Positions 4,442-20,561 of a DNA stretch of 64,000 nucleotides are shown piece by piece. The position numbers were made by a program, and so were the translations under genes. The DNA comes from Chloroflexota bacterium. Lineage in GTDB: Bacteria; Chloroflexota; Anaerolineae; Anaerolineales; UBA4823. The notes beneath the pieces were generated by a model. The model was not told where the DNA came from and made no database searches. It saw nothing but the letters and a program-made list of their open reading frames with translations. Location of the stretch: NCBI GenBank assembly GCA_012516075.1, contig JAAYXE010000099.1, positions 62,001-126,000 on the forward strand, written 5' to 3'. Position 1 is the first letter of the stretch. Every line of letters starts with the position of its first letter.

Positions 4442-4446
4442 GTTCT

Positions 4447-4471
4447 GTTCACGGGTTCACAGCCCGTGAAC
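4447..4471 (+). promoter_or_regulatory. Hairpin immediately after the FMN aptamer
   Basis: GTTCACGGG and CCCGTGAAC form a 9-bp stem with a 7-base loop. It starts six bases after the aptamer closing stem and has no U-run. It may be the anti-antiterminator or part of the switching helix. Confidence 0.45.
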
Positions 4472-4521
4472 CAGTACAAGGCAGCCGGCCATCTGTTTAG
4501 ATGTTGCCTTTGTCTGAGTGT

Positions 4522-4548
4522 GCCCCGAAAACGATTTGTTTTCGGGGC
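4522..4548 (+). terminator. Terminator-like hairpin 1 of the riboswitch leader
   Basis: An 11-bp stem GCCCCGAAAAC / GTTTTCGGGGC with loop GATTT, followed by ATTTGATT. The U-tract is imperfect. It lies between aptamer and ribX and is the likely FMN-dependent terminator or the first of a tandem pair. Confidence 0.55.
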
Positions 4549-4588
4549 ATTTGATTACCGAGGCGGGCTGCCTGCGGTGAATTTCCTG

Positions 4589-4616
4589 CGCCCCGAGATA
4601 TTTTGATCTCGGGGCG
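4589..4616 (+). terminator. Terminator-like hairpin 2, just before ribX
   Basis: An 11-bp stem CGCCCCGAGAT / ATCTCGGGGCG with a 6-base loop, followed by TTTCTTC. It resembles hairpin 1 (both have a GCCCCGA arm) and ends about 24 bases before the ribX ATG, close to its ribosome-binding site. Confidence 0.55.
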
Positions 4617-4640
4617 TTTCTTCGAGAGGACAGGAAGCGC

Positions 4641-5507
4641 ATGGATTTGTCAACCTGGATCAAAAAAGAAAGAAAACTGGAGGTGGAAACGCCTCACCTT
4701 CACAGGCCGGCGCAGTATTTGCTGCTGAGTACCAGGCGCCAGAACTTCCTCTGGACGGTTCTTTCAATGTTTCTGGCCATCCTGCTCTGGGATCTGTTTG
4801 TGAGACTGACCAATGTCCCGCCCTTTATCCTGCCCTCGCCGCGATTGGTGCTTGAACGCTTTTTACAGGTCCTTCAGGATGGCAGCCTGCTGCGCCACAG
4901 TCTGGTAACCCTGCAGGAGGTGCTCGCAGGGCTGGCTCTGGGCCTGACGACGGCCTCTGCACTGGGTTACCTGCTCGCAAAATCCAGATGGGCCGAGCGC
5001 CTGCTCGCCCCTTATATCGTAGCCAGCCAGTCTATTCCCACCGTTGCGATCGCGCCGCTGCTGGTGATCTGGTTTGGCCCGGGTCTGTTTTCCAAAGTGC
5101 TGACCTCGGCGCTGATCGTGTTTTTCCCGGTGCTGGTTAACTCGATCGTGGGCCTGCGCTCGGTTCCGGCGGATCTGCGGGACCTGATGCGCTCGCTGCA
5201 TGCCACACGCTGGCAGATGTTCACCCTGCTGGAAATCCCTGCCTCTCTGCCGGTGGTGCTGGGCGGTTTGCGCGTGGGCGCCACCCTTTCGGTGATCGGT
5301 GCTGTGGTGGGTGAGTTTGTTGGAGCCGACCAGGGCCTGGGATTCATGATCAACCGGGCCCGCGGGCAGTACGATACTGCACTGGTGTTCGTCGCCGTGC
5401 TGACGCTTGTGGCGATGGCGCTGGCCCTCTACGGTATTGTGGTCCTGCTGGAATCCCGCCTGCTCTCCTGGCGCAATGGGGCCGAAAAAACTACGCAGAC
5501 GGTCTGA
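4641..5507 (+). CDS. ribX: ABC transporter permease, riboflavin uptake (RibX-like)
   Basis: Inner-membrane permease of the SsuC/TauC/ThiX type, 288 residues. It has about six membrane segments (first near residues 38-58) and the coupling-helix EAA-like region LLEIPASLPVVLGGLRVGAT near residue 195. General family members move sulfonates, nitrate or pyrimidines. Riboflavin is inferred here because the gene lies directly under an FMN riboswitch and is followed by an NMT1/THI5-type binding protein, the arrangement described for RibXY in Chloroflexi. The N-terminal 35 residues are cytosolic and charged. The ATG follows a GAGAGGACAGGAAG purine tract. Spacing to ribY is 35 bases. Confidence 0.82.
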   Translation: MDLSTWIKKERKLEVETPHLHRPAQYLLLSTRRQNFLWTVLSMFLAILLWDLFVRLTNVPPFILPSPRLVLERFLQVLQDGSLLRHSLVTLQEVLAGLALGLTTASALGYLLAKSRWAERLLAPYIVASQSIPTVAIAPLLVIWFGPGLFSKVLTSALIVFFPVLVNSIVGLRSVPADLRDLMRSLHATRWQMFTLLEIPASLPVVLGGLRVGATLSVIGAVVGEFVGADQGLGFMINRARGQYDTALVFVAVLTLVAMALALYGIVVLLESRLLSWRNGAEKTTQTV

Positions 5508-5542
5508 TCTGCATCAACGCATCAATTCCGGAGAAGAAGAAT

Positions 5543-6556
5543 ATGTCATTTCAATCCATAGCTCGCCTCATAATTGCTGCACTGCTGCTGACCGCCTGTG
5601 CAGGATCTCCTTCCCCAACCCCAGCTGTGAGCCCGGCGACGCCCACGGAACAGACAATGGAGCAGGTTCGCCTGGGAATGGGTTTTATCCCCAATGTCCA
5701 GTTTGCGCCCTTCTATGTGGCCCTTGAGAAAGGTTATTTCCGGGATGCTGGCATTGATCTGGTGATCGACTACGACCTGGATGAAGTGGGAAATGTTGCC
5801 CTGGTGGGCAACGGCGACCGCCAGTTCACGGTGGCCTCGGCAGAGCAGATCATGCTGGCTCGTTCCCAGGGACTTCCCGTGGTTTATGTATTGAACTGGT
5901 GGCGCAACTATCCGGTGGCTGTGGCGGCGCTGGCCGAAGCAAATATTCACACGCCTGCTGATCTGGCCGGAAAAACGATCGGACTGCCGGGGTTATTTGG
6001 CGCGAGCTACATTGGGCTAATTGCGCTGCTGGAAAGCGGCGGATTAGCGGAAAGCGATGTCAAACTGGACGCAATCGGATACAACCAGGTCGACGCGCTG
6101 GTTACCGGTCGGGAGGACGCCGTTGTCGTTTACACGAATAACGAACCGGTGCAGCTCAAGCTGCGCGGCTATGACGTCACGGTGCTGCCGGTAGCTGATT
6201 ACGCCCAGCTGGCCTCGAATGGGCTGGTCACGAACCAGGAAACGATCGATCAGAATCCTGATCTGGTGAGCAGAATGGTGCAGGCTACGCTGCGTGGAAT
6301 AAGCGATACACTGGCGAACCCGGATGAGGCCTTTGAGATTTCGAAAAAGTATGTTGAAGGCCTGGATGCGAACGCGGACGTGCAGCGCGAAATCCTGCAG
6401 GCAACTCTTTCGTTCTGGGATGCCGAGGAAGGGGAACTGGGGGCTTCTGACCCACAGGCCTGGGAAAATATGCAGCAAATCCTGCTGGACATGGAACTGC
6501 TGTCCGAACCGGTCGACCTAGATAAGGCCTTTACCAATGCGTTTATTGAGCCGTAG
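5543..6556 (+). CDS. ribY: Riboflavin-binding lipoprotein of ABC transporter (RibY-like)
   Basis: Substrate-binding protein of the NMT1/THI5 fold, 337 residues. The lipobox LTAC gives a lipid-anchored Cys at residue 19, followed by a Ser/Pro/Thr-rich linker up to about residue 42. The body starts VRLGMGFIPNVQFAPFYVAL, which is the typical N-terminal beta-strand and ligand pocket of this family, then EKGYFRDAGIDLV. The family binds thiamine-pyrimidine precursors, sulfonates or riboflavin; the FMN riboswitch upstream makes riboflavin by far the likeliest. A good ribosome-binding site (GGAGAAG) precedes the ATG. Confidence 0.83.
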   Translation: MSFQSIARLIIAALLLTACAGSPSPTPAVSPATPTEQTMEQVRLGMGFIPNVQFAPFYVALEKGYFRDAGIDLVIDYDLDEVGNVALVGNGDRQFTVASAEQIMLARSQGLPVVYVLNWWRNYPVAVAALAEANIHTPADLAGKTIGLPGLFGASYIGLIALLESGGLAESDVKLDAIGYNQVDALVTGREDAVVVYTNNEPVQLKLRGYDVTVLPVADYAQLASNGLVTNQETIDQNPDLVSRMVQATLRGISDTLANPDEAFEISKKYVEGLDANADVQREILQATLSFWDAEEGELGASDPQAWENMQQILLDMELLSEPVDLDKAFTNAFIEP

Positions 6557-6571
6557 GTAAGGAGTTCTTGA

Positions 6572-7354
6572 ATGCAGGCATCTGCTAATGCGGTGCTGGT
6601 TGTGCGCGATCTGAGTGCAGTTTTCCCCAACGGGAACGGGGGGCTGCGCGCACTTGACCACGTTTCTTTTGAAATCTACCCCCAGGAATTTGTGTGTGTG
6701 CTGGGCCCCTCCGGGAGTGGGAAAAGCACGCTGCTGCGCATCCTGGCCGGGCTGCTTCCGGCCAGTGAAGGGGAAGCAGTATTCCATGGCCAGCGGCTTG
6801 ACGGCCCTCAGGGCGATATCGGGATTGTTTTTCAGAATGCCAATCTGATGCCCTGGCGCACGGTGATTGAGAATATTCTGCTGCCCCTGGAGGTGGGCGA
6901 TCGCGCCCGGTCTCTTTCCCGAGAGCAGGCTTATTCAAAGGCAAAGGAAATGGTAGAATTGGTCGGTCTGCAGGGTTTCGACCAATCCCTCCCGCGCGAC
7001 CTTTCGGGTGGTATGGCACAGCGGGTGGCCATAGCACGGGCTCTTGTGCATGATCCGGAGGTGCTCCTGCTGGATGAGCCTTTTGGGGCGCTCGACGCAC
7101 TGACCAGAGAGCGGATGGGGCATGAACTGCTGCGCATCTGGCAGGCGCACCGTAAAACGGTCCTGATGGTCACCCATTCTATTTCCGAAGCGCTGCTGCT
7201 GGCCGACCGGGTGCTGGTCCTCACCTCACGCCCGGGGCGGGTCTGTCTCGATCTGCCGGTCGACCTTCCCCGGCCCAGGGATGATTCGATCCGCTACTCA
7301 CCCCGCTTCGGAGAACTGGCCGGGCAGATCCGGGATGCGATTGGCGAGTCCTGA
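6572..7354 (+). CDS. ABC transporter ATPase of the riboflavin uptake system
   Basis: Cytosolic ATPase of the SsuB/TauB/NrtD class, 260 residues. Walker A GPSGSGKST is near residue 47, Q-loop VFQNANLMPWRT, signature LSGGMAQRVAIARAL, Walker B VLLLDEPFGALD, and the H-loop MVTHSISEA. It follows ribY by 15 bases with a clear AAGGAG site. It supplies energy to the RibX permease. Many RibXY loci lack a dedicated ATPase, so its presence here completes the transporter. Confidence 0.9.
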   Translation: MQASANAVLVVRDLSAVFPNGNGGLRALDHVSFEIYPQEFVCVLGPSGSGKSTLLRILAGLLPASEGEAVFHGQRLDGPQGDIGIVFQNANLMPWRTVIENILLPLEVGDRARSLSREQAYSKAKEMVELVGLQGFDQSLPRDLSGGMAQRVAIARALVHDPEVLLLDEPFGALDALTRERMGHELLRIWQAHRKTVLMVTHSISEALLLADRVLVLTSRPGRVCLDLPVDLPRPRDDSIRYSPRFGELAGQIRDAIGES

Positions 7355-7386
7355 AAAGATGAAACCGCATGCAGAGGGGTGCTTTT

Positions 7387-8346
7387 ATGCTCATGAAAAA
7401 AGTCTCTGCCGTTTTGATCCTTCCAGGAATACTTCTGGCCTTCTTGCTGGCCGCCGCGCTGGTCTTTCCGGCAGGTGCAGTGGCTCAGGAAAATCTGACC
7501 CTGCCCGAAGCACGCATTGATCTCTGGCCCGAATACGACCGGCCCGAGATGCTCGTCATCCAGAATTTCGTCCTGCCCGCCAGTGTAAGCCTGCCGGCAG
7601 AGGTGGTGTTCCGGATTCCAGCCGCCAGCGGAGGTCCTTCTGCTGTTGCCGTGCGCCAGCCGGACGGCGCGCTCTATGAAACCCCTTATACCGAAGAACA
7701 GGCAGGCGCCTGGATAGCCGTCCAGGTAACGGCTACCACGCCCGAGATTGTGATCGAGTATTATGATCCTGGCCTGACCAAAGAAGGAAGTATGCGCAGC
7801 TATACCTACCAGTGGCCGGGTGATCCGGCTGTTGAGTCAATGACCCTGCGCATTCAGCAGCCGGCACAAGCCAGTCAGATGACGATCACTGGAGGTCTGG
7901 GTACCGGCACGGTTGGCAGCGATGGGCTGACCTATTACGTGAAGGATCTGGGGGAGATCGCTGCCGGTCAGGCTTTTTCACTGGAGCTGCAGTATACAAA
8001 ACCTTCTGACGATCTGACGGTCAGTGGTCTGCCAGTGCAGCCTGCTTCACCTATTCAGGAGACAACCGCCGGCAGCGTCCAGCTGGTATCCGCGCTGCCC
8101 TGGGTCCTGGGCGGCTTTGGAGTGCTCTTTATTGCGGTTGGCGGATGGTGGTACTGGAGATCTGGCCGGGGGGATGCAAAACAGACCACCCCGGCGCGTG
8201 CTCGAGGCTCACGATCATCGGGCAAATTAAAAGGAAAACCGGCTCCTTCCGACGGAGAGTACATCTACTGTCACCAGTGTGGAAACCGTGCGGCTCCAGG
8301 AGATCGCTTCTGCCGCACCTGCGGAACCCAGCTGCGAGGCAGATGA
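7387..8346 (+). CDS. Membrane-anchored secreted-domain protein with C-terminal zinc ribbon, function unknown
   Basis: A 319-residue protein with an N-terminal signal segment (LAFLLAAALVFPAGAVAQ). A beta-rich domain of about 200 residues, presumed extracytoplasmic, follows; then one membrane helix (WVLGGFGVLFIAVGGWWYW, about residues 240-260), a basic linker, and a zinc ribbon at the extreme C-terminus (CHQCG...FCRTCG). I chose the Met at 7387 over one at 7369 because AGAGGGG lies 7 bases before it. The layout resembles the C-terminal part of the diheme lipoprotein at 21738-23726 (beta domain, one helix, cytosolic tail). It follows the riboflavin ABC genes by 32 bases and is probably cotranscribed. 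No known function is recognised. Confidence 0.75.
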   Translation: MLMKKVSAVLILPGILLAFLLAAALVFPAGAVAQENLTLPEARIDLWPEYDRPEMLVIQNFVLPASVSLPAEVVFRIPAASGGPSAVAVRQPDGALYETPYTEEQAGAWIAVQVTATTPEIVIEYYDPGLTKEGSMRSYTYQWPGDPAVESMTLRIQQPAQASQMTITGGLGTGTVGSDGLTYYVKDLGEIAAGQAFSLELQYTKPSDDLTVSGLPVQPASPIQETTAGSVQLVSALPWVLGGFGVLFIAVGGWWYWRSGRGDAKQTTPARARGSRSSGKLKGKPAPSDGEYIYCHQCGNRAAPGDRFCRTCGTQLRGR

Positions 8347-8445: not shown

Positions 8446-10704
8446 TCACGAGCCGTCTTCGGCGGTCTCCGTCTCCACAGGTACTCCTGCACCTGAATTG
8501 ACCGGGGGGCGGGTCAGGCCGGATGCATCGCCAATGGAGTCGATGCTGTCGTACAGGAACTGCAGGACGTATTCATTGTTGTGAGCGAACGCGCCCGGAT
8601 CCTTGGCGACCCAGGTGTAGTTATAGGCCGCACGCAGCAGATTCGGAGTCCAGCTTACGAAGCGGTTGTCGTTGCTGGCTTCATCCGGGTCCACCTGGCC
8701 ATTGCCGTTCAGGTCGTTGAACCAGTAAGGATACCTGGCGGGATTGTAGGCCAGCGGCGTACCTCTGCGCTGGCTGTATTCCAGGATGGCCTCAAACAGC
8801 AAATTGTGCATAGTCTCGATTTCGAAGGCGATTCCCTCATCCGGGTCGCCGTCGCCATCGTAGTCAATACCTTCTCCGTCCGGATCGAGGCGGATGCTGC
8901 GCAGATCCTCCTGGGTTTCAACACCGGGATGGCAGAGGACACAGGTGTTCACCTGAATGGTCAGCGCATGCGGGTCATGGCATTCCACGCAGGAGTCAAA
9001 CGGAGGGATGTGATCGAACCTTCCGTTGTATTCCCGCCCCTCGTACTCATAGGCTCCATGCGCCTCTGAGCCGAAGAGCGTGGCGCCGGCTGCGAAGTAG
9101 TGCGGGTTGCGGAAGCTGAGCGCTTCGGACGCCTGGTCATCACCGACGCCAACGCGGTTGATGGCCGCATCCACGGAGCGCGTGGATTCACGCCCCTGGT
9201 GACAGGTCATGCACAGATTGCCCTGGGGGTTGTCCTGGAAGCCCAGTACCTCTCCACTGGGGAACTCGACTTCTGCCACCTCATACAGGGTGAAGTCATC
9301 GATGTTGGTATGGCAGGTTGTGCATGACAGGTTGGTAGAAGGCGGAATGGAGATGGTGGCGCCGTTTTCGATGAACATGGGCAGCCCTTCGGCCGTATGG
9401 CAGCGAACGCAGGTGGCTTCCACAATCCCTTCCTCGTCCCAGTGGCGCCAGGCTTCGTAGAAGGAAGCAAAGTGCCCGGGGTCATTGCGGTTGGCGCGCG
9501 ACAGATCAACGGCCTGTGAGCCAAGCGCCTCGTTTAACACATCGATCGAGTCATAGAGGAGCTGGATGATGTATTTGCCATTGTGGGCATAATTCCCGGG
9601 ATCCTTTAGTGACACCTGGTAGTTGTAGGCAGCCTGCAGCAGCCGGCCGGTAAAGGCATTGTAGCCGTTACTCGAGGTAGCCTCATCCTCGTCCACCACT
9701 CCGTTTTCGTTGGTGTCGATAAAGAAATACGGATGGGAATGCTCATCGTAGGCGATCGGGGTTCCGACAACACTGCTGGCATACGCCTGCATGGCCTGCA
9801 TCAGCATCTGCTGGAGCGTTTCGATCTCGTAGTAGATGCCTTCTGCGATCTCGCCATCGCCATCGTAATCCAGCATTGAACCCTGCATGCGGATGTTGCG
9901 CAGATCTTCAACGCTGGCTACGCCCTCGTGGCAGGTTGTACACCCTTCGATGCGGATTTCCAGGGTGTGGGGGTTATGGCATTCGGCGCAGGTATCGTAT
10001 TCTTCTACGTGTTCAAACTTGTACACGTAGGCCCGGTCGGAATATTCATATCCGCCCTTTACCTGGGTGCCGTACAATGTGGCAGCCGCGGCATAGTAGT
10101 GGATGTTGACAAACCGCAGATCCTCACTGGGCGTATCCAGGTCTTCGGTCAGACCGGCGTTTTCGATGGCTGAATTTACCTGTACCACAGAAGAACGGCC
10201 CTGGTGACATTCCATACAGCGGGCCGAGGGACCCAGTCCAGCAAGTTCTATGCCAGAAGGAAAGACCACTGCATCCAGAGTGCCAGCCACCTGATTATGG
10301 CAGGCCTGGCATTCGATCACCGTGCCGATTGGGGCCGCGTTATCTACCTGGTGAAAAGCGGTGCCGTCCACACCCAGATAGTCGAGATAGCCCGGTGTAC
10401 TGTGGCAGCGGGCGCACTGTGCGGGAATTTCCTGAGGATCTTCCTCATCCCAGTGCCGGAAGGCCTCTGAATCAGCATCGGCATGCGGTGAATTCACCCA
10501 TGCCTCCTGGAATGGAACCACATCAACCACCGGCTCGGCAGGGCAGGTGGGACAATCTGGGCAGGGAGCGGCTGTTGGGCAGGGGACCTGCGTTACAGCC
10601 GCTGCATCTTCTGTTACTGCCGGTCCTGGCGCCTGCTGGCAGGCTGCTAAAGCGAACAAGAGAAACAGCAGCAACCCCCCTTTCCACAAATAGCTTCGTT
10701 TCAT
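8446..10704 (-). CDS. Decaheme c-type cytochrome lipoprotein made of two pentaheme repeats
   Basis: A 752-residue lipoprotein (lipobox LAAC, Cys22) with ten CXXCH motifs, at residues 97, 132, 163, 239, 255 and 432, 461, 498, 572, 588. The two sets of five have matching spacing and flanking sequence (for example HWDEE before heme 1, CHQGR at heme 3, FAAGATLFG/YAAAATLYG, ECHDPH/ECHNPH), so the protein is an internal duplication. Each repeat carries two calcium-loop-like stretches: DYDGDGEIAEG and DTNENGVVDEDE in the first, DYDGDGDPDEG and DLNGNGQVDPDE in the second. The N-terminal linker is Cys/Pro-rich (PCPTAAPCPDCPTCP). It lies downstream of the cytochrome b / nonaheme genes but has its own structured leader. 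Likely a surface-exposed electron carrier or terminal reductase; no family name is recognised. Confidence 0.88.
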   Translation of the reverse strand: MKRSYLWKGGLLLFLLFALAACQQAPGPAVTEDAAAVTQVPCPTAAPCPDCPTCPAEPVVDVVPFQEAWVNSPHADADSEAFRHWDEEDPQEIPAQCARCHSTPGYLDYLGVDGTAFHQVDNAAPIGTVIECQACHNQVAGTLDAVVFPSGIELAGLGPSARCMECHQGRSSVVQVNSAIENAGLTEDLDTPSEDLRFVNIHYYAAAATLYGTQVKGGYEYSDRAYVYKFEHVEEYDTCAECHNPHTLEIRIEGCTTCHEGVASVEDLRNIRMQGSMLDYDGDGEIAEGIYYEIETLQQMLMQAMQAYASSVVGTPIAYDEHSHPYFFIDTNENGVVDEDEATSSNGYNAFTGRLLQAAYNYQVSLKDPGNYAHNGKYIIQLLYDSIDVLNEALGSQAVDLSRANRNDPGHFASFYEAWRHWDEEGIVEATCVRCHTAEGLPMFIENGATISIPPSTNLSCTTCHTNIDDFTLYEVAEVEFPSGEVLGFQDNPQGNLCMTCHQGRESTRSVDAAINRVGVGDDQASEALSFRNPHYFAAGATLFGSEAHGAYEYEGREYNGRFDHIPPFDSCVECHDPHALTIQVNTCVLCHPGVETQEDLRSIRLDPDGEGIDYDGDGDPDEGIAFEIETMHNLLFEAILEYSQRRGTPLAYNPARYPYWFNDLNGNGQVDPDEASNDNRFVSWTPNLLRAAYNYTWVAKDPGAFAHNNEYVLQFLYDSIDSIGDASGLTRPPVNSGAGVPVETETAEDGS

Positions 10705-10873
10705 GGCATTCTCCTCATCGTAGTTGATGAAACGAACTCGCCTTACCTGTCAGGGGTTTAGGTTCGTTTAGCGGTCGTTTTTTCACCTCCTTATACCGCA
10801 TTGTGTTGACCGGTGAAACACCGGTCAACAGGGCAGTTTTCCTGCCCCTGAAGGGGATATCTCCGACATTATA
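10705..10873 (-). promoter_or_regulatory. Promoter and structured 5' leader of the decaheme gene
   Basis: On the minus strand a consensus TATAAT (10873-10868) starts a leader of about 155 bases. It contains a GGGCAG/CTGCCC hairpin, then the perfect 11-bp hairpin GTTGACCGGTG / CACCGGTCAAC with a TTT loop (10829-10805). A full anti-SD complement AAGGAGGTG follows with no ATG at the usual distance. GTG within it opens a 23-codon frame ending 10 bases before the decaheme ATG (10786-10715). The -35 is poor. GATGAGGAGA provides the ribosome-binding site of the decaheme gene itself. Confidence 0.5.
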
Positions 10874-10980
10874 TCTCAGAGATTAGAGCAGGATGAGAGA
10901 TAGTTGTCCCCATTAATGCATGACGAACATCACCAGATTCATATGATTTTCATTGTCATGCGGCATTCAACTCCCTTCTC

Positions 10981-12186
10981 TCATTGTTCCGTAGCACCAG
11001 CCTGTATCCATTCCACCACCTGGGCCAGTTCGTCTGGCGAGAGCTGGCCAGGATGCCCTCCGGCAGCCTGGATTTGCACCACAACGCTGTTATCCGGATC
11101 TCCAGGCACAACACCCGGGCCGCTCAACCCACCTTCCAGGGCGTCCTGATATGTCGCCAGGGAAAGGCCGCCGAAGGAACCCTGAACGTGGCAGCTTCCG
11201 CAGCGATTTTCGAAAAGAACGGAAACACCACCTTCCCAGGAATCGAAATTCAGCGCGCCTTCGGGCAGCGGTGTCAGCGTGGGCAGCGGGGTCGGAGTGA
11301 TGGGGACAAAGACCGGCGCGGTTTCACCGGGCGGCAGGGTGGTAATGGCGGTTTCCTCGAAGGTGACAAAGCGGACGAGCCCGTAGCCGAGCACCAACAC
11401 AATCACACCGGCAAGCGGGTAAAAAATTCGCTCCCTCTGGCGGACCACTTCAGGAGGCGGGGGCCGGTGGGCAGTACCGGAGCGGATGGCATCCAGTTCG
11501 GCCGGGTGTTCGTGCTCCATCTCCTCTTCGGTGAGCTTTCCGGTAAACATGCTGCGGTTGAAGTGGCGGATATGGACGTGATAAAAGTGCCAGATAATGA
11601 TGGCCAGAACGGCCAGCAGCGCTTCACCCCCATGAGCCGCCTTGGCCGCAGGAATCGCCTCTCCGGGAAGGAAGCGCGCGGTGGCGATCGGGTTCCACAT
11701 CATAAACCCGGTGATGGCCATGATGACCGTCCCCCAGACCACGGCCAGGTATTCGACTTTTTCGGCATACATATAGCGTCCGTAATAGGCCTTGCGCGTC
11801 CGCCTGCCCAGGTAGAACAGAATGTCATGGAACAGATGACGGAAATCTTCGAACGTTGGGAGCATGCTCAATGGGGCGCGCTGGACGAAGACCCGGTAAA
11901 TCACCGCCACGATGTGAAAGATGCTGACCGCCATAAGAGCCACAGCTGAGGTGCGGTGGATAATGCGGGCGGTTTCTATCCCCCCAAGCAGGCTGATCAC
12001 GGCCTCGCCGGCAGGCGTGATGGCGTATTTCTGAGCCAATCCGGTAATGCCCAGAAGGGAGAAGGATACCAGCAGGACAGCATGTTCGATCCGCTGTGTG
12101 CGGCTGAAGCGGGTGTAAACCCTTACCTCTTCTCTGGCGGGGGCCTCTGCTTCAGCGCCGGGCTGGGCCGGGTACGATTCAGCCAT
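10981..12186 (-). CDS. Diheme cytochrome b (FdhI/HydC-like) fused to a C-terminal cytochrome c domain
   Basis: A 401-residue integral membrane protein. Residues about 20-240 form a four-helix cytochrome b561-type quinone module with heme-ligand histidines in IEHAVLL, IHRTSAV...FHIVAV, AHGGEALL and IWHFYHVHIRHFNRSMFTG. A further membrane helix (FYPLAGVIVLVLGYGLVRF, about residue 260) leads to a Pro/Thr linker and a monoheme cytochrome c domain with CGSCH near residue 332. It should take electrons from menaquinol (or give them) and pass them outward through its own c heme. Start ATG has AGGAG upstream; it overlaps the end of the nonaheme gene by 8 bases. It is a paralogue of the 253-residue cytochrome b at 13468-14229, which lacks the c domain. 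Confidence 0.88.
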   Translation of the reverse strand: MAESYPAQPGAEAEAPAREEVRVYTRFSRTQRIEHAVLLVSFSLLGITGLAQKYAITPAGEAVISLLGGIETARIIHRTSAVALMAVSIFHIVAVIYRVFVQRAPLSMLPTFEDFRHLFHDILFYLGRRTRKAYYGRYMYAEKVEYLAVVWGTVIMAITGFMMWNPIATARFLPGEAIPAAKAAHGGEALLAVLAIIIWHFYHVHIRHFNRSMFTGKLTEEEMEHEHPAELDAIRSGTAHRPPPPEVVRQRERIFYPLAGVIVLVLGYGLVRFVTFEETAITTLPPGETAPVFVPITPTPLPTLTPLPEGALNFDSWEGGVSVLFENRCGSCHVQGSFGGLSLATYQDALEGGLSGPGVVPGDPDNSVVVQIQAAGGHPGQLSPDELAQVVEWIQAGATEQ

Positions 12187-13471
12187 TCTCGCTCTCCTGG
12201 GATGGGCTGCCGGTGTCTTCTTCCGGTGATGGTTGTTCTGAGTCCGGTGCAGTACTAGTACTTTCTTCGCTAGCCGGGCTCTCGCCTTCTGGTGCAGCAG
12301 GTTCTATGCGCTGTGCTCTCCATTTGCGGAGCAGTGTCATTGCGTCCATGATGACAAGGATCGTCATGCCGCCCAGGACGACCGGAATAAAGAAACGGTA
12401 GAAGGTGTCTACGGTAAAGACCAGCGGATAGCGATCCGGTGAAGGGATGTAATGTGACAGCCAGGCTGTGGGGAAGTTCTGACTGGCATCGGGGTGACAG
12501 CGCTGGCAGGTTTCGAGCAAATTTTGCTTTACGCGCAGCCCTTTTTCCGGGTCGTCCGGGTCAATGATGTTGTGGATCCCGTGACAGTCATAGCAGACCG
12601 GTTTGTTGGTTTCCTGATCCGGATGGCTGCGTTGAAACAGGACGACGGTTGTGCCGTGGAAGTCGGCGACATAGGTGTCCAGCACCTGTGTCGAAATCCC
12701 GTAAGGCTCCATGATTTCCGGGTTGGTGTGGCAGCCAGCGCAGATATTCGGGGAGCGCAGGCGGAAAGCGGCAGTATTAGGGTCCTCAATACTGTGCACA
12801 CCATGACAGTCCGTGCAGGTGGGAACGTTGGGATCGCTGCCCTCGAGCAGAGCGGAACCGTGGACGCTTTCTGCGTAAATCTGGTAAATGGCATAGTGGC
12901 AGTTGGCGCATGTTTGCGGCACCCAATCGCGCGCTTGGGGCAGTAGTTCATTCGAGTCCGGCTGAGTCAGACGCCGCGTGGTATGCGCGGTGTGGCAGTC
13001 TGTGCAGATGGCGGCGTTCAGGTTGCCCGCCTGCAGAGCGGTTTCGTGCACGCTGTCCTTGACCTGCTCAAACTGGGCGGTATGGCAGCGCTGGCAGACA
13101 CTCACCAGCTGCAAACTCGCATCGCGCGCGTTTTCGGCCTCGAATGGGGGGTGGGGATATTCACCCACCTGCGTATGGCACTGCACACAGGCGTATCCCT
13201 GCTCTCCATGCACCGAGCGTGCAAACAAGCCTTCCGGTACGAATAAGCTCCATTCCTCTCCATCGTTCAACGTCATGGAGATACCCGGGTTCCCGTGACA
13301 GCTCAAACAGGTTTCGTTACCGATGGAGAGGTTCGGGTCGGGTGTATTTTGCAGAACAGGCTGAGCCGCCGCCTGTGTGTTGTGAGGACCGTCTGGCGGG
13401 GCTGTGAGGACCAAAACCGCCATGAAAACTGCTCCACCGATGAGGAAAAGAGCCGCTCGATACCAGCTCAT
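12179..13471 (-). CDS. Nonaheme c-type cytochrome with C-terminal membrane anchor (copy 2)
   Basis: A 430-residue protein with an N-terminal membrane segment or uncleaved signal (AALFLIGGAVFMAVLVLTAP). Nine CXXCH motifs follow (CLSCH, CVQCH, CQRCH, CTDCH, CANCH, CTDCH, CAGCH, CYDCH, CQRCH), then a C-terminal helix FFIPVVLGGMTILVIMDAM with a short Glu/Ser/Pro-rich cytosolic tail. Heme order and spacing match the nonaheme protein at 14226-15350, so the two are paralogues. The start overlaps the stop of the preceding cytochrome b by 4 bases and its stop overlaps the next cytochrome b-c start. It should relay electrons between the quinone module and outer cytochromes. Confidence 0.9.
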   Translation of the reverse strand: MSWYRAALFLIGGAVFMAVLVLTAPPDGPHNTQAAAQPVLQNTPDPNLSIGNETCLSCHGNPGISMTLNDGEEWSLFVPEGLFARSVHGEQGYACVQCHTQVGEYPHPPFEAENARDASLQLVSVCQRCHTAQFEQVKDSVHETALQAGNLNAAICTDCHTAHTTRRLTQPDSNELLPQARDWVPQTCANCHYAIYQIYAESVHGSALLEGSDPNVPTCTDCHGVHSIEDPNTAAFRLRSPNICAGCHTNPEIMEPYGISTQVLDTYVADFHGTTVVLFQRSHPDQETNKPVCYDCHGIHNIIDPDDPEKGLRVKQNLLETCQRCHPDASQNFPTAWLSHYIPSPDRYPLVFTVDTFYRFFIPVVLGGMTILVIMDAMTLLRKWRAQRIEPAAPEGESPASEESTSTAPDSEQPSPEEDTGSPSQESENG

Positions 13472-14229
13472 CCGGCTATCTCTCCAGATTCGGGGGCATC
13501 AGGTTCTCCGAAATTTGCCCGGGCTTCTTCTTCTACCAGCCGACGGTACTCCAGCGTGTGATAATCCTGCATTTCGCGCTCGGACAAACGCCCGCTGAAG
13601 ATGCTCAGGTTCAGACGCTCCACATGCACGTGGTAGAAGTGCCAGACGACGATAAAGATGAGCGCGACCAGAGCCTCACTGCTGTGTGCCCGGTAGGCGG
13701 CGGGGATGGTCTCCCCTGGAAAGACCCGTGTCCACTGGATGGGAAACCAGAGGATGATCCCGGTCAGCACCAGGATGCCGATGCCTACAAACAAGAACCA
13801 GTAAGTAAACTTCTGCTCAAAGTTGTATTTACCGAACTCGGGTTTGCGTTCAGTCAGGAAGAACAGGTAGCGAAGCATTTGCCAGGCGTCGCGGAAATCC
13901 TTCCAGGTGGGGAAAATGTCCGCCGAGAGCCGGCCTCTCAGCATCAAATACAGGGAGTGCCCGATGTGGTAAATCACTTCGATGATCAACACTACAGCCG
14001 CCGCATGATGAATCTGGCGGACAAGGATTAACCTGCTGGGAGAAGTGAGGATCAGATGCCCCCACAGGTCGAAGTACTTTTGCGGCAGGCCCGTGAGTGC
14101 CAGCACGGTAAAGCTGAGGAACAGCAGGGCGTGCTCCCAGCGCTGTGCCAGGGTGAAGCGGGGAAAATGCCGCTCAACCCGAACAGCACTTTGAACGGGC
14201 AGGCTCTGATTGTCCTGTGCTTCCGTCAT
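13468..14229 (-). CDS. Diheme cytochrome b membrane subunit (FdhI/HydC-like)
   Basis: A 253-residue cytochrome b of the formate dehydrogenase gamma / hydrogenase cytochrome b type with four membrane helices. Candidate heme ligands are in WEHALLFLSF, QIHHAAAVV...VIYHIGH, AHSSEALV and VWHFYHVHVERLNLSIFSG. A longer reading frame extends to 14427, but that part lies inside the upstream nonaheme gene. ATG at 14229 overlaps that gene's TGA (ATGA), so it is the true start. With the nonaheme protein it forms a quinone-to-cytochrome c module, repeated by the next two genes. The C-terminus is cytosolic and acidic. Confidence 0.9.
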   Translation of the reverse strand: MTEAQDNQSLPVQSAVRVERHFPRFTLAQRWEHALLFLSFTVLALTGLPQKYFDLWGHLILTSPSRLILVRQIHHAAAVVLIIEVIYHIGHSLYLMLRGRLSADIFPTWKDFRDAWQMLRYLFFLTERKPEFGKYNFEQKFTYWFLFVGIGILVLTGIILWFPIQWTRVFPGETIPAAYRAHSSEALVALIFIVVWHFYHVHVERLNLSIFSGRLSEREMQDYHTLEYRRLVEEEARANFGEPDAPESGEIAG

Positions 14230-15350
14230 CCCAAACTCCTTCGCACCCTCACAACGGTTGCCCTCAAGATCTGTAAAAGGACATAAATCGCTGAAACCAT
14301 GAGGACCAGGTAGGCAAAATAGCGGTAGAAAATGTCTGTATAGAAGACATAAGGGTTCCTCTGAAGGTCGATCTGCGTGTGCCCTGTCCACGCGCCGACA
14401 AACTGCGGCCCTGCGCCCGGGTGACACTGCTGGCAGGTGCCCAGCAGGTTGTCAGGATGTACGCTCGACTGCGGGTCGCTGCTGCTTAAAATATTGTGGA
14501 CGCCGTGACAGTCGGTGCATACGGCGCTGCTGTGCCAGAGATTGGGCCAGCGCGCCTGATACACGGTTACGTCAACCCCGTGCCAGGAAAGCTGGTAGGT
14601 GCTGTAGACATCTGAATTCAACCCATACTGGCTCATCAGTTCAGGGTCGGCATGGCAGCCGGCGCAGAGTTCAGGGGTCTCCACACGAAAAGCCACGGCA
14701 GTAGGATCCTGAATGGCATGCACGCCGTGACAGTCTGTGCAGACGGGCACATCGGGGTTCTCTGCTTCCAGTAAGGCGGCTCCGTGCACACTGTCCCGGT
14801 AGACATCAAACACCTCAGTGTGGCATTCACCGCAGGTGAGTGATATTTGCGAACGGGGCTCATCCGGCGCCTGTACCGCATGGGCCGTATGACAGTCGGT
14901 GCAGATGGGAGCGCTGTCGCTGCCCTGTTCCACCGCCGCGGCGTGAATGCTGTCCATCGCCTCAGCGAAGAGGTCTGAATGACATTTCTGGCAGGCCTGG
15001 AAATAGGACTGGGCTAATTCTCTGGGGTTATTGAACTCAACCGGCGGGTGAGGGTAAGAGCGGATGTCGGTATGGCAGGCGATGCATTCAATGCCAAGAG
15101 AACTGTGCACCGAATGACTCAACGCCTCCGGTGAGATGTAAAGGGACAGGGTTTCACCATCGGGAAAGGTCAGGTCCAGATCGGGGTCGGCATGGCAGGA
15201 AAGGCAGTAATCCTCGGTCGTCTCCTGACTGCTGTCGCGCGCATATACCGGCTGGCTGAAGCTCAGGACAGCAAAGATGGGGACCAGAACGAAGATGGTA
15301 AATTTGAATGCCACACAAGGCATCACGGCGAAGGATTCAGGCTTTGCCAT
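14226..15350 (-). CDS. Nonaheme c-type cytochrome with C-terminal membrane anchor (copy 1)
   Basis: A 374-residue protein with a signal segment (FTIFVLVPIFAVLSF), nine CXXCH sites (the first at residue 49: CLSCH, CIACH, CQKCH, CTDCH, CGECH, CTDCH, CAGCH, CTDCH, CQQCH) and a C-terminal helix near residues 338-362. Repeated phrases CTDCHGVHAI and CTDCHGVHNI mark doubled heme-pair units. A histidine often follows each site at a fixed distance (DSVHG, SWHG), consistent with bis-His ligation. It overlaps the small membrane protein gene by 14 bases upstream and the cytochrome b gene by 4 bases downstream. Resembles the multiheme half of CbcL-like fusions, with the b subunit as a separate gene here. 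Confidence 0.9.
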   Translation of the reverse strand: MAKPESFAVMPCVAFKFTIFVLVPIFAVLSFSQPVYARDSSQETTEDYCLSCHADPDLDLTFPDGETLSLYISPEALSHSVHSSLGIECIACHTDIRSYPHPPVEFNNPRELAQSYFQACQKCHSDLFAEAMDSIHAAAVEQGSDSAPICTDCHTAHAVQAPDEPRSQISLTCGECHTEVFDVYRDSVHGAALLEAENPDVPVCTDCHGVHAIQDPTAVAFRVETPELCAGCHADPELMSQYGLNSDVYSTYQLSWHGVDVTVYQARWPNLWHSSAVCTDCHGVHNILSSSDPQSSVHPDNLLGTCQQCHPGAGPQFVGAWTGHTQIDLQRNPYVFYTDIFYRYFAYLVLMVSAIYVLLQILRATVVRVRRSLG

Positions 15351-15537
15351 GCATCCAGTTTCCTTCTTTCTCCCTGCCGTAACCGTTTCCGCTGTTATGG
15401 TCAGCCGGAGGCTGTGGAGGCTCTTTCAGCAGTCCCAGACGTTTTAGCAGGTAAGAAATACCCAGCATGATCAGCAGAGGGACTCCGCAGCGGAGCACAA
15501 ACATCAGGATGATGATGAGCGGGTTTGCACCTTCCAC
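15337..15537 (-). CDS. Small single-helix membrane protein of the multiheme cluster
   Basis: A 66-residue protein with a hydrophobic N-terminal half (about residues 6-30, PLIIILMFVLRCGVPLLIML) and a polar, Pro/Asn/Gly-rich C-terminal tail. The start is GTG; the 3' end overlaps the nonaheme gene by 14 bases, which supports translation. It may be an assembly or stability factor for the cytochrome complex. No homologue is recognised. Confidence 0.6.
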   Translation of the reverse strand: MEGANPLIIILMFVLRCGVPLLIMLGISYLLKRLGLLKEPPQPPADHNSGNGYGREKEGNWMHGKA

Positions 15538-15567
15538 GATCAGGTCATCCTTCCCTAACCAGGCAGG

Positions 15568-16800
15568 TCACTGCGAGCCCTGGGGTTCTGCATGATAATT
15601 GCGCGCGTTCTCGAAAAGGGCTTCGTCTGTCAGGAGGACCCCGCGGCCTTCGATGTGACACTGGCGGCAGGCATGGTTCAGGGGGATCTGTGCAAAGCCG
15701 GCCTGCCCAAGAGTATTTTCATCCGTGAGGTTCAGTCGATAAGGATCGATCGCGACCACGTGGGTGCGAACATCAGCAATAAAGACCTGTGGATCTCCCC
15801 ACGCGTTCTCGATCATGTAGGGCATGTGGCAGGTGATACAGTCCACACCCAACCGGGCGTGATCCTCTACTTTCTGGAAGCGTGCGGCCTGGGTGTGGCA
15901 TTCCACGCAGCGGGGAATATTACTCCCGGTCTGCTGTTCGGTCTGCGCTGCGCCGCTGTGGGGATCATGGCAGGTAACGCAGTCTAAAACCTGGTGTTTT
16001 CCCTGAAACATCCCCCCATATTCATCGTGGTGCAGGATGAAAACATCGTCTGTTTCGGCGGGTGGGCCGGGCGTATGGCAGCGCTCACAGGCCTGCCGGT
16101 CGCGGTCAATGCGCATATCGACTGCACGCGGGTTCTGGATGTGCAGGCTGCCCGGGCCGTGGCAGGCCTCGCACTGCACACCGGGAGCAGACCAGGTCCC
16201 CTGGATTCCGGGTAAATCATCCTGGCTGCCGTTCGTGCTGTAGCCAGTGCTGTGACACGCCCCGCAGTTGTAGGCTACCTGAGCAACGCCGGGCCTGTAG
16301 GGTACGAATTCACCCTGAAAAAAGATCACCTGATTGGGAAGATTGAATTGGGTAAGCGCTGCTGAGTCTTCTCCGGTGATGATGTAGCCCTGCGAATCGA
16401 TGAAGAGGGCTTTCCAGCGGTAACCGCCGATCACATAGCTGATATCGTCCCAGGCATAGCCTGCGGGCGGCTGGGGGATTTCACTGAAGGGATAGTCTGG
16501 GGGCTGGCCGTCGACAACCGGGTTCAGAATCCAGGGATGCCCGGAGCGAAGAAAGGCCTCATAGGCCTGCTGGTGGCAGCTGGCGCACGTCTCACTGCCG
16601 GTATACGCGGCGTCCAGCAGGGTGACCGATTCGCCGGGCGGCCCTGTTTCTCCCCGGGGTCCCTGAGGCCCTTCCGGACCAGGCGGGCCAGGTGGTCCGG
16701 GCGGCCCCTGCACACTCTCTGCCCGTGCGCATGCGGACAGAATACAGAGAATGAGAACCACCAGGCAGGTCTGGAATCGGTGGAAACGTTGAGTGTGCAT
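15568..16800 (-). CDS. Octaheme c-type cytochrome lipoprotein with a collagen-like Gly-X-Y stalk
   Basis: A 410-residue lipoprotein: lipobox LSAC (Cys24), then nine uninterrupted Gly-X-Y triplets (residues 32-58, begins GPPGPPGPPGPEGP), then a heme domain with eight CXXCH motifs at residues 72, 179, 210, 238, 274, 298, 321 and 378. The first heme region (YTGSETCASCH...SGHPW) looks like the cytochrome c554 type. All sites are CXXCH; no CXXCK or P460-type signature was seen. The gene is first in the minus-strand cluster, with a GGGAGGG site before the ATG. The stalk could trimerise and lift the hemes away from the membrane. Its electron partner is presumably the nonaheme / cytochrome b modules downstream. 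Confidence 0.88.
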   Translation of the reverse strand: MHTQRFHRFQTCLVVLILCILSACARAESVQGPPGPPGPPGPEGPQGPRGETGPPGESVTLLDAAYTGSETCASCHQQAYEAFLRSGHPWILNPVVDGQPPDYPFSEIPQPPAGYAWDDISYVIGGYRWKALFIDSQGYIITGEDSAALTQFNLPNQVIFFQGEFVPYRPGVAQVAYNCGACHSTGYSTNGSQDDLPGIQGTWSAPGVQCEACHGPGSLHIQNPRAVDMRIDRDRQACERCHTPGPPAETDDVFILHHDEYGGMFQGKHQVLDCVTCHDPHSGAAQTEQQTGSNIPRCVECHTQAARFQKVEDHARLGVDCITCHMPYMIENAWGDPQVFIADVRTHVVAIDPYRLNLTDENTLGQAGFAQIPLNHACRQCHIEGRGVLLTDEALFENARNYHAEPQGSQ

Positions 16801-17286: not shown

Positions 17287-17796
17287 ATGGAGAATACCGC
17301 GACGCTTCAATCCCGCTCTGGAAGCCGGGTGAAGTTTTTAGTGGGCGGCCTTTTAATCATTGCCGCGGTAATTTACCTGATTGCGACCTCGATGCAGGCC
17401 AGCGCCCAATATTTTTTAACAATCGATGAGATGTTGAGTAAGGGCGATAGTGTCATCGGACAGAACCTGCGGGTCTCGGGAGCTGTGATTGGCGACTCGA
17501 TCCAGTACGACGCGCAAAATCTCATTCTCACCTTTGAGGTAGCGCATATTCCGGGTGATAACGCCGAGGTTGAAGCCCAGGGTGGACTGGCCAAAGTCCT
17601 GCACGATGCTGTTGTGGATCCGAACCGGCAGCGGGTGAAGGTCGTTTACAATGATGTCAAGCCCGACCTGCTGCGCGATGAAGCCCAGGCGATTATGACC
17701 GGTCATCTGGGCGAAGACGGGGTTTTCTATGCAGACGAACTGCTGTTGAAATGCCCCACCAAATACGAAGAGGCAGTACCCGAGCAGGCAGGTTGA
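17287..17796 (+). CDS. ccmE: Cytochrome c maturation heme chaperone CcmE, CxxxY type
   Basis: Periplasm-facing heme chaperone of System I, 169 residues. One membrane anchor (FLVGGLLIIAAVIYLIATSM, about residues 17-36) is followed by the OB-fold (LRVSGAVIGDSIQYD). The C-terminus has LLLKCPTKYEE, so the heme-attaching residue is Cys156 in a CxxxY motif instead of the usual His of HxxxY. That variant is known from archaea, sulfate reducers and some other bacteria. CcmE receives heme from CcmC and hands it to CcmF. A strong AGGTGAT site precedes the ATG. It is the first gene of the ccm operon. Confidence 0.93.
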   Translation: MENTATLQSRSGSRVKFLVGGLLIIAAVIYLIATSMQASAQYFLTIDEMLSKGDSVIGQNLRVSGAVIGDSIQYDAQNLILTFEVAHIPGDNAEVEAQGGLAKVLHDAVVDPNRQRVKVVYNDVKPDLLRDEAQAIMTGHLGEDGVFYADELLLKCPTKYEEAVPEQAG

Positions 17797-17851
17797 TCGC
17801 AGGTTTGTGTACGAGTTTCCATCGAATTATTGATAGGGTGGGGCATTTAAT

Positions 17852-17882
17852 GTAAAACGTGAGAGCGATCCTCACGTTTTAC
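17852..17882 (+). promoter_or_regulatory. Hairpin between ccmE and ccmF
   Basis: A 12-bp perfect stem GTAAAACGTGAG / CTCACGTTTTAC with a 7-base loop, followed by GTTTGC. It lies in the 114-base gap after ccmE. It could act as a partial terminator or an RNA-processing site giving ccmE a different level from the rest of the operon. Confidence 0.5.
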
Positions 17883-17910
17883 GTTTGCAGGGAAGTAGTA
17901 TGGAGCACAC

Positions 17911-19965
17911 ATGATCACCAATTTAGGATTTGGAGCTATTCTGATCACCTTCCTCATATCGCTGTATGGGGCTGGCGCAGCCGCGTATGGAGCCAGTAAG
18001 AAGGCACAGGAGTGGATCGAAAGCGCGCGTCTGGCGATGCTGCTGACCTTTCCGCTGCTCACCCTATCGGCTCTGGCGCTCATTTATTTGCTGGTTAATG
18101 GGCACTACGAAGTGGCATTTGTCACCTCGGTGACCAGCAACAGCATGCCCTTATATTTGAGGGTAACAGCGCTGTGGGGTGGACAGGCTGGTTCATTAGT
18201 TTTCTGGTCCTGGTTGATGTCTGCGTTTGCTTCCGCCGTTACCCTGCGCAGATGGGACCGGGATCGTGAATTTCTCCCCTGGGTGATTGTCGTATCTCTC
18301 GTCACTCTGGCATTCTTCCTGGCGCTGGTTATTTTCTTTGAAAACCCCTTTGAACGCTACTGGCAGACGCCCTCGGGCGTGGTGGCTGCGATGTTCCAGC
18401 CGGCGAGTTCCACTCTGCTGGTTCCGCCAGATGGAAACGGGCTGAACCCGCTGCTGCGCCACCCGGGCATGACCCTTCACCCGCCGATGCTGTACCTTGG
18501 CTTTGTGGGCTTTGTGATCCCCTACGCATTCGCCATTGCCGCTCTGGTCACCGGGCGTACCGATGACCGCTGGATCCGGCTCACGCGGCGCTGGACCTTG
18601 ATCGCGTGGTTGTTCCTCTCGCTGGGTTTGATCCTGGGCGGGCGCTGGGCTTATGACGTTCTCGGTTGGGGCGGTTACTGGGCATGGGACCCGGTGGAGA
18701 TTGCAGCCTTCATGCCCTGGCTGACCGGCACGGCATTCCTGCATTCGGTGATGATTCAGGAAAAGCGCGGGATGCTGAAACACTGGAACATGGCGCTGAT
18801 CATCCTGACCTACTGTCTGGTGATCTTCGGCACATTCCTGACCCGGTCTGGCGTTCTGTCATCGGTGCACTCCTTTGCCCAGAGCGCCATTGGGCCGATG
18901 TTCTTCGGCTTCATCGGGATCACTTTTATTATCTCGCTGGCCCTGCTCCTGCGCCGCTGGGATGAATTAAAATCGGGCGTGGAAATGACGTCGCTGCTGT
19001 CGCGTGAGGCGCTCTTCCTGCTCAACAACCTGCTGTTCCTCGGTATTATGGTCGTCTGCTTCTGGGGTGTGATCTTCCCTCTGATATCGGAGCTCGTGAC
19101 AGGCCAGAAGGTCACCGTGGGACCGCCGTTTTATGAGCGTGCCACCGGGCCGCTGTTTGCCGGCCTGCTACTGCTGATGGGCGTCGCTCCGCTGGCAGCC
19201 TGGCGTCATTCCACCGCGAAAACCCTGGGCCGCGCGATGTGGAAACCGGGTCTGTTCTCGATCGCGGTGCTGCTGGCGCTGGTCGCTGCCGGCGTGCGCA
19301 GCGCGGCTGCCCTTCTGGGCTTCTGGCTGACCGCTTTTGTCACCTCCGTGACGGTCTATGAGTTCTGGCGCGGCGCGCTGGCGCGCCACCGCAGGTCAGG
19401 AGAAAGCCTGCCCGTGGCACTGGCTCGTTTATCCGCCCGCAACCGCAGGCGGTACGGCGGCTACATCATCCATCTGGGCGTGGTGCTGATGGCCGTGGGC
19501 ATTATTGGGATTGAGCTCTTCCAGACCGAAACGCAGGGAACGATCGGGCAGGGCGAGTCGATCACGCTGGGCGAATATACGATGACGTATGACGACCTGG
19601 CCATTTTCGATACCGATGACGGGCGCAATGTGGCCCGTTCGGTCGTCAGCGTGTATAAAAACGGCCGGTTTGTCTCTGAGCTGTACCCGCGCCGGGATTT
19701 CTACTATGAGTCCCAGCAGCCGATGACCATCCCCGGTGTACGCAGTACCATGGAAGATGATTTCTATGTGCTGCTGGTGGACTGGCAGCCGATTACCTCG
19801 CAGGGAGCAACCTTTAAGGTGTACCATAACCCGCTGGTCAACTGGCTCTGGATGGGTGGTTTCGTCTTCATCTTTGGCACCCTGATCGCGGCCTGGCCGG
19901 ATAAAGACCCGGAGGTTGTGCCTGCGCGTGCGAAGCGTCCTGTCTATGCTTCTGCTGAAGGATAA
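17911..19965 (+). CDS. ccmF: Cytochrome c heme lyase subunit CcmF
   Basis: Polytopic membrane protein of 684 residues, close to the usual CcmF length, that attaches heme to apocytochrome c. It has the tryptophan-rich WWD-type motif WGGYWAWDPVEIAAFMPWL near residue 255, the upstream HPGMTLHPPMLYLGFVGF and LTRSGVLSSVHSFAQS with conserved heme-ligand histidines, and a large C-terminal periplasmic loop before a last helix. It follows ccmE and precedes ccmH and ccmG as expected for System I. Confidence 0.96.
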   Translation: MITNLGFGAILITFLISLYGAGAAAYGASKKAQEWIESARLAMLLTFPLLTLSALALIYLLVNGHYEVAFVTSVTSNSMPLYLRVTALWGGQAGSLVFWSWLMSAFASAVTLRRWDRDREFLPWVIVVSLVTLAFFLALVIFFENPFERYWQTPSGVVAAMFQPASSTLLVPPDGNGLNPLLRHPGMTLHPPMLYLGFVGFVIPYAFAIAALVTGRTDDRWIRLTRRWTLIAWLFLSLGLILGGRWAYDVLGWGGYWAWDPVEIAAFMPWLTGTAFLHSVMIQEKRGMLKHWNMALIILTYCLVIFGTFLTRSGVLSSVHSFAQSAIGPMFFGFIGITFIISLALLLRRWDELKSGVEMTSLLSREALFLLNNLLFLGIMVVCFWGVIFPLISELVTGQKVTVGPPFYERATGPLFAGLLLLMGVAPLAAWRHSTAKTLGRAMWKPGLFSIAVLLALVAAGVRSAAALLGFWLTAFVTSVTVYEFWRGALARHRRSGESLPVALARLSARNRRRYGGYIIHLGVVLMAVGIIGIELFQTETQGTIGQGESITLGEYTMTYDDLAIFDTDDGRNVARSVVSVYKNGRFVSELYPRRDFYYESQQPMTIPGVRSTMEDDFYVLLVDWQPITSQGATFKVYHNPLVNWLWMGGFVFIFGTLIAAWPDKDPEVVPARAKRPVYASAEG

Positions 19966-20001
19966 GGCTGCAGAGCAGAGATCAACGGCCGGGAGATCTT
20001 C

Positions 20002-20532: not shown

Positions 20533-20561
20533 AAAACCTCTCCGGGGCATCGATTTTATCG

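Follow-up and report, generated by a model that had tools for sequence, protein, structure and literature searches.

OcwA of Thermincola potens consists of a five-heme NrfA-like cytochrome fused to a four-heme one resembling c554; besides exchanging electrons with electrodes, it reduces iron oxides, has a slow nitrite-reducing activity and also acts on hydroxylamine (PMC6703420). CbcL and CbcBA of Geobacter act at the quinone side (PMC9129911, PMC12307469), CbcL with nine c hemes and two b hemes in bis-histidine (bis-His) coordination (PMC9129911). No CbcL homolog has been reported from Chloroflexi (PMC6295460); a decaheme and octaheme cytochromes were noted in an early study of a sediment Chloroflexi genome (PMC3971608). 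Here, we describe a cluster of seven genes for multiheme cytochromes c, cytochromes b and a small membrane protein in a 64,000-nucleotide (nt) stretch of DNA, hereafter the window, from a Chloroflexota bacterium of the order Anaerolineales (GenBank assembly GCA_012516075.1, contig JAAYXE010000099.1, positions 62,001 to 126,000, forward strand). The cluster probably links the quinone pool to an acceptor at or beyond the surface of this single-membrane bacterium, a reading to which we assign a probability of roughly 0.6. An earlier note on this DNA could match the cluster to no single named complex, and in the open-access literature we likewise found no description of it, although absence there is no proof of novelty.

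All seven genes, labelled A, S, B, C, D, E and G in the order in which they are read, lie on the minus strand, with transcription running from 16800 to 8446 (Table 1). They encode 37 CxxCH motifs (8 + 9 + 9 + 1 + 10), where far fewer than one would be expected by chance in this total protein length, as estimated from residue frequency. Four of the six junctions overlap (S/B by 14 nt, B/C and C/D by 4 nt each, D/E by 8 nt), with gaps of about 30 nt between A and S and of 276 nt between E and G. Both the count of 37 heme sites, alongside two FdnI-type cytochromes b, and the statement that most genes are joined by overlaps thus agree with the earlier note. Given the width of the E–G gap, G may be transcribed separately from its own promoter; promoter and terminator scans gave no signal above chance. 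Homologs with the same motif positions are present in dozens of genomes, which argues that A to G are real genes. Reading C as a longer open reading frame (ORF) with a GTG start at 14427 was ruled out; the ATG at 14229 overlaps the stop codon of B.

Table 1. Coordinates of the cluster and of neighbouring features in the window (aa, amino acids; TM, transmembrane helix; FMN, flavin mononucleotide).
Feature	Position	Strand	Details
A, octaheme lipoprotein	15568-16800	-	410 aa, 8 CxxCH
S, small single-TM protein	15337-15537	-	66 aa, GTG start, TM 7-25, 0 CxxCH
B, first nonaheme cytochrome c	14226-15350	-	374 aa, 9 CxxCH, C-terminal TM 340-358
C, FdnI-type cytochrome b	13468-14229	-	253 aa, 0 CxxCH
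D, second nonaheme cytochrome c	12179-13471	-	430 aa, 9 CxxCH, C-terminal TM
E, FdnI-type cytochrome b fused to monoheme cytochrome c	10981-12186	-	401 aa, 1 CxxCH
G, decaheme lipoprotein	8446-10704	-	752 aa, 10 CxxCH, lipobox Cys22
Cytochrome c maturation genes (ccmE, ccmF, ccmH, thioredoxin, ccmA/B/C type)	17287-25916	+	Pfam CcmE, CcmF_C, CcmH, AhpC-TSA, ABC, CcmB, Cytochrom_C_asm
ORF within the ccm run	21480-23726	+	748 aa
Cytochrome oxidase and alternative complex III-like run	37972-50698	-	
FMN riboswitch and transporter region	4310-8346	+	
NMT1/SsuA-type transporter, permease	4641-5507	+	
NMT1/SsuA-type transporter, binding protein	5543-6556	+	
NMT1/SsuA-type transporter, ATPase	6572-7354	+	
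Unnamed membrane protein	7369-8346	+	Zinc-ribbon end, faces G

The membrane modules of the cluster pair each nonaheme cytochrome with an FdnI-type b subunit, as the earlier note had proposed. C matched PF01292 (Ni_hydr_CYTB, E = 8.8e-14) and, under that model's cut-off, the formate dehydrogenase gamma model TIGR01583 (9.4e-18). E combines PF01292 (5.3e-13) with PF07635 (6.7e-6) and also matched the gamma model below cut-off; it aligned with Escherichia coli FdnI (1kqf_C, 3.8e-7) such that His 35, 77 and 185 of E fell on His 18, 57 and 155 of FdnI. Conserved histidines are shared between C and E, and C is expected to carry two b hemes. The CxxCH motif of E, at residue 329, lies in an additional monoheme domain that follows one more membrane helix and shares homology with the C-terminal domain of a NapC-type heptaheme protein, encoded beside the cluster in relatives. 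Both B and D start with a signal peptide and end in a single membrane helix followed by basic residues, so that their nine hemes should face outward. Beyond the heme motifs, ten histidines are conserved in B (13 sequences) and nine in D (one at 83%) plus Met254, a number that would suffice for bis-His ligation of every heme in both proteins. Searched against the PDB, the D/B profile matched MtrA best (6r2q, 5.5e-10), followed by NrfA, hydroxylamine oxidoreductase (HAO) and octaheme nitrite reductases. The AlphaFold2 (AF2) model of D (predicted local distance difference test score (pLDDT) 78) shows a long C-terminal helix at 349–388; an assignment of its fold was dropped, the matches to HAO (Z 7.5 at 14 Å root-mean-square deviation) and MtrA (Z 5.5) both being too weak. 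In a maximum-likelihood tree, the window B fell into a clade of 13 B proteins (support 100/100) and the window D among 16 D proteins (99/99). The doubling is therefore old and shared, which rules out B–C as a recent duplicate of D–E. The small protein S matched no NCBIfam model; its homologs directly precede B in about a dozen loci.

The two lipoproteins appear to carry one half of OcwA each. A has a signal peptide, a lipobox Cys at position 24 and a collagen-like GPP stretch that would form a stalk. In single-sequence phmmer searches it matched OcwA of Thermincola (6i5b, 1.1e-12) and OmhA of Carboxydothermus (1.7e-9), and its profile matched OcwA (4.7e-25), MccA (2.9e-13) and OmhA (4.6e-12). 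The match to OcwA spans hemes 1–4, the c554-like half (6i5b chain residues 12–199), and includes the interval between hemes 1 and 2, from which we conclude that the N-terminal half of A is homologous to this surface reductase. A has eight hemes and ends about 28 residues past the last of them, whereas OcwA has nine on one polypeptide. Between hemes 4 and 5 it carries a His-His pair (257/258; conserved at 85% and 70%) that aligned with OmhA. In OcwA such a pair covers the open heme 2 (PMC6703420), and an open heme is therefore possible in A as well. The only cysteines of A beyond the heme motifs are at positions 12, 19 and 24, in the signal peptide and lipobox, which argues against a copper site of the MccA type with its two Cys ligands. 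At G000:C83:63713-64915 (L102), beside genes resembling a metal/B12-type ABC importer, lies a second copy of A that has diverged to 38% identity and has 8 hemes.

G is a tandem duplication: its halves, with five hemes each, aligned with each other at E = 5e-115 and 44% identity. Its sequence had no match in the PDB, where its profile reached just 0.005. We therefore turn to the AF2 model (mean pLDDT 74.6), residues 57–398 of which superimposed in VIA-align on the NrfA-like half of OcwA (Z 11.7, 3.5 Å over 217 residues) and on E. coli NrfA (Z 11.4, 4.4 Å over 258 residues); many further NrfA entries scored Z 10–11, and the first unrelated rows followed at Z 3. The first repeat is thus predicted to adopt the NrfA fold with five hemes, which is also that of the other half of OcwA. 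The structural matches cover this repeat, and the second, being 44% identical to it, would share the fold. In all five of its heme motifs the second repeat aligned one-to-one with the NrfA of the same organism, and three of the four distal histidines of that NrfA fell on conserved histidines. Both repeats have CxxCH where heme 1 of NrfA has CxxCK, and after heme 3 G reads CHQGR against CHVEY in NrfA, so that Arg replaces the catalytic Tyr; the catalytic His of NrfA aligned with a non-conserved His. A link between G and NrfA drawn from sequence profiles was discarded: its E value (8e-4) was worse than those of the same comparison with A, B and D (1e-9 to 1e-11), which score better because of shared heme motifs. 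Since profile scores do not single out NrfA, the relationship rests on the model and the heme register. An initial assignment of bis-His coordination to all hemes of G was likewise dropped after the NrfA-type match, as heme 1 may be open.

We next compared the cluster with the described systems. OcwA shares with A the c554-like half and its heme order, A also carrying the His-His pair between hemes 4 and 5 that aligned with OmhA (Carboxydothermus ferrireducens), and the NrfA-like half of OcwA has the modelled fold of the first G repeat; the hosts of OcwA and OmhA, like this bacterium, have no outer membrane. Whereas OcwA is one nine-heme protein, its two halves appear, from homology and model, to reside here on separate lipoproteins, the c554-like one on A, with four hemes of its own and the stalk added, and the NrfA-like one, doubled, on G. 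CbcL, MtrH and MtoC share with the cluster nine c hemes, about ten conserved extra histidines and an FdnI-type diheme b unit, in line with the CbcL-like working principle suggested earlier. These proteins fuse the c and b domains, whereas B, C, D and E are separate genes; the b and c units of CbcBA are also encoded by separate genes. Compared with CbcL, here by its description only, the nonaheme domain is longer, has its own C-terminal anchor and is doubled in tandem. NrfA resembles G in its five hemes in the same order, the three-helix end and the fold of the first repeat (Z 11.4), but G has neither CxxCK at heme 1 nor the catalytic Tyr after heme 3, and is a tandem-duplicated lipoprotein. 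A differs from the sulfite reductase MccA in missing the two Cys copper ligands. MtrCAB-type porin-cytochrome systems also have large surface lipoprotein cytochromes, and MtrA is the best solved relative of the D/B profile, but the cluster contains no porin or barrel gene and the genome no Omp85 marker; A and G were nearer to OcwA and NrfA than to MtrC in the comparisons made. The cluster is not a member of the CbcL (split), OcwA (split, doubled), NrfA (catalytic residues missing) or MtrCAB (no barrel) types and, by analogy, would work like a combination of the CbcL and OcwA types.

To assess conservation, D was used to scan GTDB contigs, which gave 80 loci. D is the most widely conserved core member; the D–E pair was present in nearly all of these loci, with G and A nearby in many, and the order S-B-C-D-E was found in about a dozen Chloroflexota. 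Outside this phylum, D–E-like pairs, including fused multiheme–cytochrome b proteins, occurred in delta-proteobacterial and Myxococcota metagenome-assembled genomes (MAGs), WOR-3 and a few others, and relatives of E are fused to multiheme domains in two loci (L077, L078). Among 201 genomes drawn evenly from the same order, 71 carried D, 81 carried G and 34 carried A. D and G co-occurred in 46 genomes (28.6 expected, p = 2e-7) and D and A in 27 (12 expected, p = 1e-8), p values that are optimistic because the genomes are related. Physical linkage (≤20 kb) was seen in 33 of the 46 and 21 of the 27 cases, respectively, and recurs across families. The co-conservation that the earlier note had asked for is therefore present. 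Its idea of two parallel routes leading to two lipoproteins fared less well: B and D form old paralogous clades, the D–E pair is kept in most relatives, and nothing ties A to B–C or G to D–E. Heme number differs between families around the conserved nonaheme core, with 14 or 15 heme motifs in D homologs of Caldilineaceae, Ardenticatenaceae and others (L038, L040-L043, L045-L054) and 0 to 6 in E homologs elsewhere.

In four family members (L103, L104, L105, L107), A, a second octaheme, an iron-sulfur (FeS) protein, NrfD, S, B, C, D, E, a sensor kinase and its regulator form one run, which ends with G in three of the four and includes the NapC-type heptaheme in two. The window cluster is a reduced form without the middle part of this larger version, a point on which the earlier note needs correction. 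A second octaheme–FeS–NrfD set is located on another contig of the same genome (L097:8120-13799, contig C164), where an 11-heme lipoprotein gene, divergent from a LysR regulator, is accompanied by an octaheme, a TAT-type FeS protein and NrfD; it is the counterpart of the NrfD module inside the relatives' cluster. In two other loci (L006:17248-20560, L108:5038-8350), Rieske and cytochrome b6 genes precede one for a subunit IV to which seven heme motifs are fused. This set adjoins the cluster, or A plus the heptaheme, and resembles an unusual bc-type complex.

The genome itself also bears on where A and G would act. At 97% completeness it had no match to Omp85, for which 7 of 14 control genomes were positive. 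This fits the single membrane expected for Chloroflexota, and a lipoprotein on the outer face would therefore be at the cell surface. Furthermore, canonical NrfAH is encoded elsewhere in the genome, so that nitrite ammonification needs no help from the cluster.

In the mechanism that we propose, C and E would exchange electrons with quinone inside the membrane, B and D, as helix-anchored nine-heme cytochromes, would carry them outward, and A and G, as outward-facing lipoproteins, would hand them to the final acceptor. Candidate acceptors are Fe(III) or Mn(IV) minerals, humics, flavins, electrodes and partner cells, and a weak N-oxide activity at an open heme may exist alongside. We infer quinone use, the electron path, its outward direction and the nature of the acceptor from three groups of observations: the heme counts and anatomy, the FdnI-like b subunits and the conserved extra histidines as in CbcL; the homology of A to OcwA and the fit of the G model to OcwA and NrfA, far above that to unrelated folds; and the co-occurrence and linkage of D, G and A, the larger version with NrfD and FeS genes, the missing Omp85 match and NrfAH elsewhere. 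Several points weigh against this proposal. The function and the direction of electron flow are predictions from sequence and models; the possible open hemes in A and in G may point to an enzymatic role on a soluble substrate; the structural match of D to MtrA is under a trustworthy level (Z 5.5); and nearly all cluster-bearing members are MAGs. In addition, no protein with more than seven hemes is reported for electrode-active Ardenticatena maritima (PMC5808234), the sole Chloroflexota isolate with published electrode activity that we found in the open-access literature, and electron transfer in the phylum therefore does not require the cluster.

Since each lipoprotein either belongs to an enzyme superfamily or resembles one, the strongest alternative is that the cluster encodes a respiratory reductase acting on a soluble compound such as nitrite, hydroxylamine or another N- or S-oxyanion, with A and G as catalytic members of the OcwA/MccA/NrfA superfamily and B to E as the quinol dehydrogenase, comparable with nrf and mcc operons. 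In those operons a multiheme enzyme is paired with NrfC/NrfD-type (FeS, NrfD) subunits, and in the relatives A likewise has FeS and NrfD genes as partners. The NrfA-like fold of G, the homology of A to OcwA and MccA, and the activities of OcwA on nitrite (slow) and hydroxylamine (PMC6703420) are also in line with such an enzyme. According to the earlier note, no catalytic reductase subunit such as NrfA is encoded; this needs correction, because the predicted NrfA fold of the N-terminal half of G and the OcwA homology of A make it possible that a soluble substrate is reduced, perhaps weakly, at one of these proteins. Overall, we regard a dedicated soluble reductase as unlikely: G has CxxCH at the position of NrfA heme 1 and Arg for the catalytic Tyr after heme 3, A has no MccA-type copper Cys, canonical NrfAH is already in the genome, and the presence of two different lipoproteins is more in keeping with a role at the surface than with a soluble enzyme.

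Electrons might also flow inward, with A and G collecting them from Fe(II), reduced humics or partner cells, B to E reducing quinone, and onward transfer to oxygen via alternative complex III and cytochrome oxidase or to nitrite via NrfAH. The window does encode alternative complex III-like proteins and COX1–3, and the genome NrfAH; CbcL/MtoC-type modules have been proposed to be bidirectional (PMC6295460), and bidirectional transfer was shown in Ardenticatena (PMC5808234). However, the cluster has no genes specific to Fe(II) oxidation (no Cyc2, no porin) and its closest characterised relatives, OcwA and OmhA, are proposed terminal reductases, which makes this direction rather improbable. Least probable of all is that the cytochromes serve the cell-wall space only, storing electrons or passing them on to oxidases or a further NrfD complex: the NrfD/FeS, NapC-type heptaheme and Rieske/cytochrome b genes beside the cluster in relatives would allow a membrane-bound network, but the large size and lipidation of two of the cytochromes, one of which bears a collagen-like stalk, and the lack of an Omp85 match in the genome speak against it.

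Within the proposed outward route to the surface, a more specific picture can be given tentatively, at somewhat worse than even odds. The cluster could represent a distinct form of extracellular electron transfer in single-membrane Chloroflexota, in which tandem-doubled, split CbcL-like quinone modules feed two lipoproteins that each correspond to an OcwA half, G being a tandem NrfA-fold surface outlet without the NrfA catalytic residues.

Several neighbouring genes are related to cytochromes. The cytochrome c maturation run, required for c heme assembly, is divergent from A and starts 487 bases away; ccmE is near the cluster in L006 too. The 748-aa ORF within this run, with two cytochrome c domains like those of cbb3 subunit III and a membrane helix at its C terminus, is unusual for a ccm component. 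Further along the window, COX3, COX1 and COX2 with a cytochrome c adjoin the alternative complex III-like run, which comprises a multiheme protein, a 1072-aa FeS protein, NrfD and small cytochromes. On another contig of the same genome (L098, contig C188), HdrD-like, DsrM-like and FeS genes stand with an NrfD gene that is fused to six heme motifs, a set that presumably resembles Tmc/Hme-type complexes. On the other side of the cluster, an FMN riboswitch precedes the NMT1/SsuA-type ABC transporter genes, and riboswitch and transporter stand beside G in six of the eight family members examined. The transporter probably moves flavin, and OcwA binds FMN (PMC6703420), a hint that it may be tied to flavin use by the cytochromes. 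A functional tie to G is weakened by the presence of the binding protein in 164 of the 201 order genomes.

Chloroflexota abound in sediments, groundwater and anammox reactors; for most of them, anoxic respiration is poorly known. The conserved and recognisable gene set described here provides a marker for metaproteomes and a short list of proteins for expression. If our reading is true, the architecture of OcwA would be built from separable parts, which would bear on the proposed common origin of NrfA, c554 and OcwA, with enzymes for soluble acceptors turned into surface outlets. Judged by its sequence, the cluster is a good candidate for the outward electron transfer route of these single-membrane bacteria.

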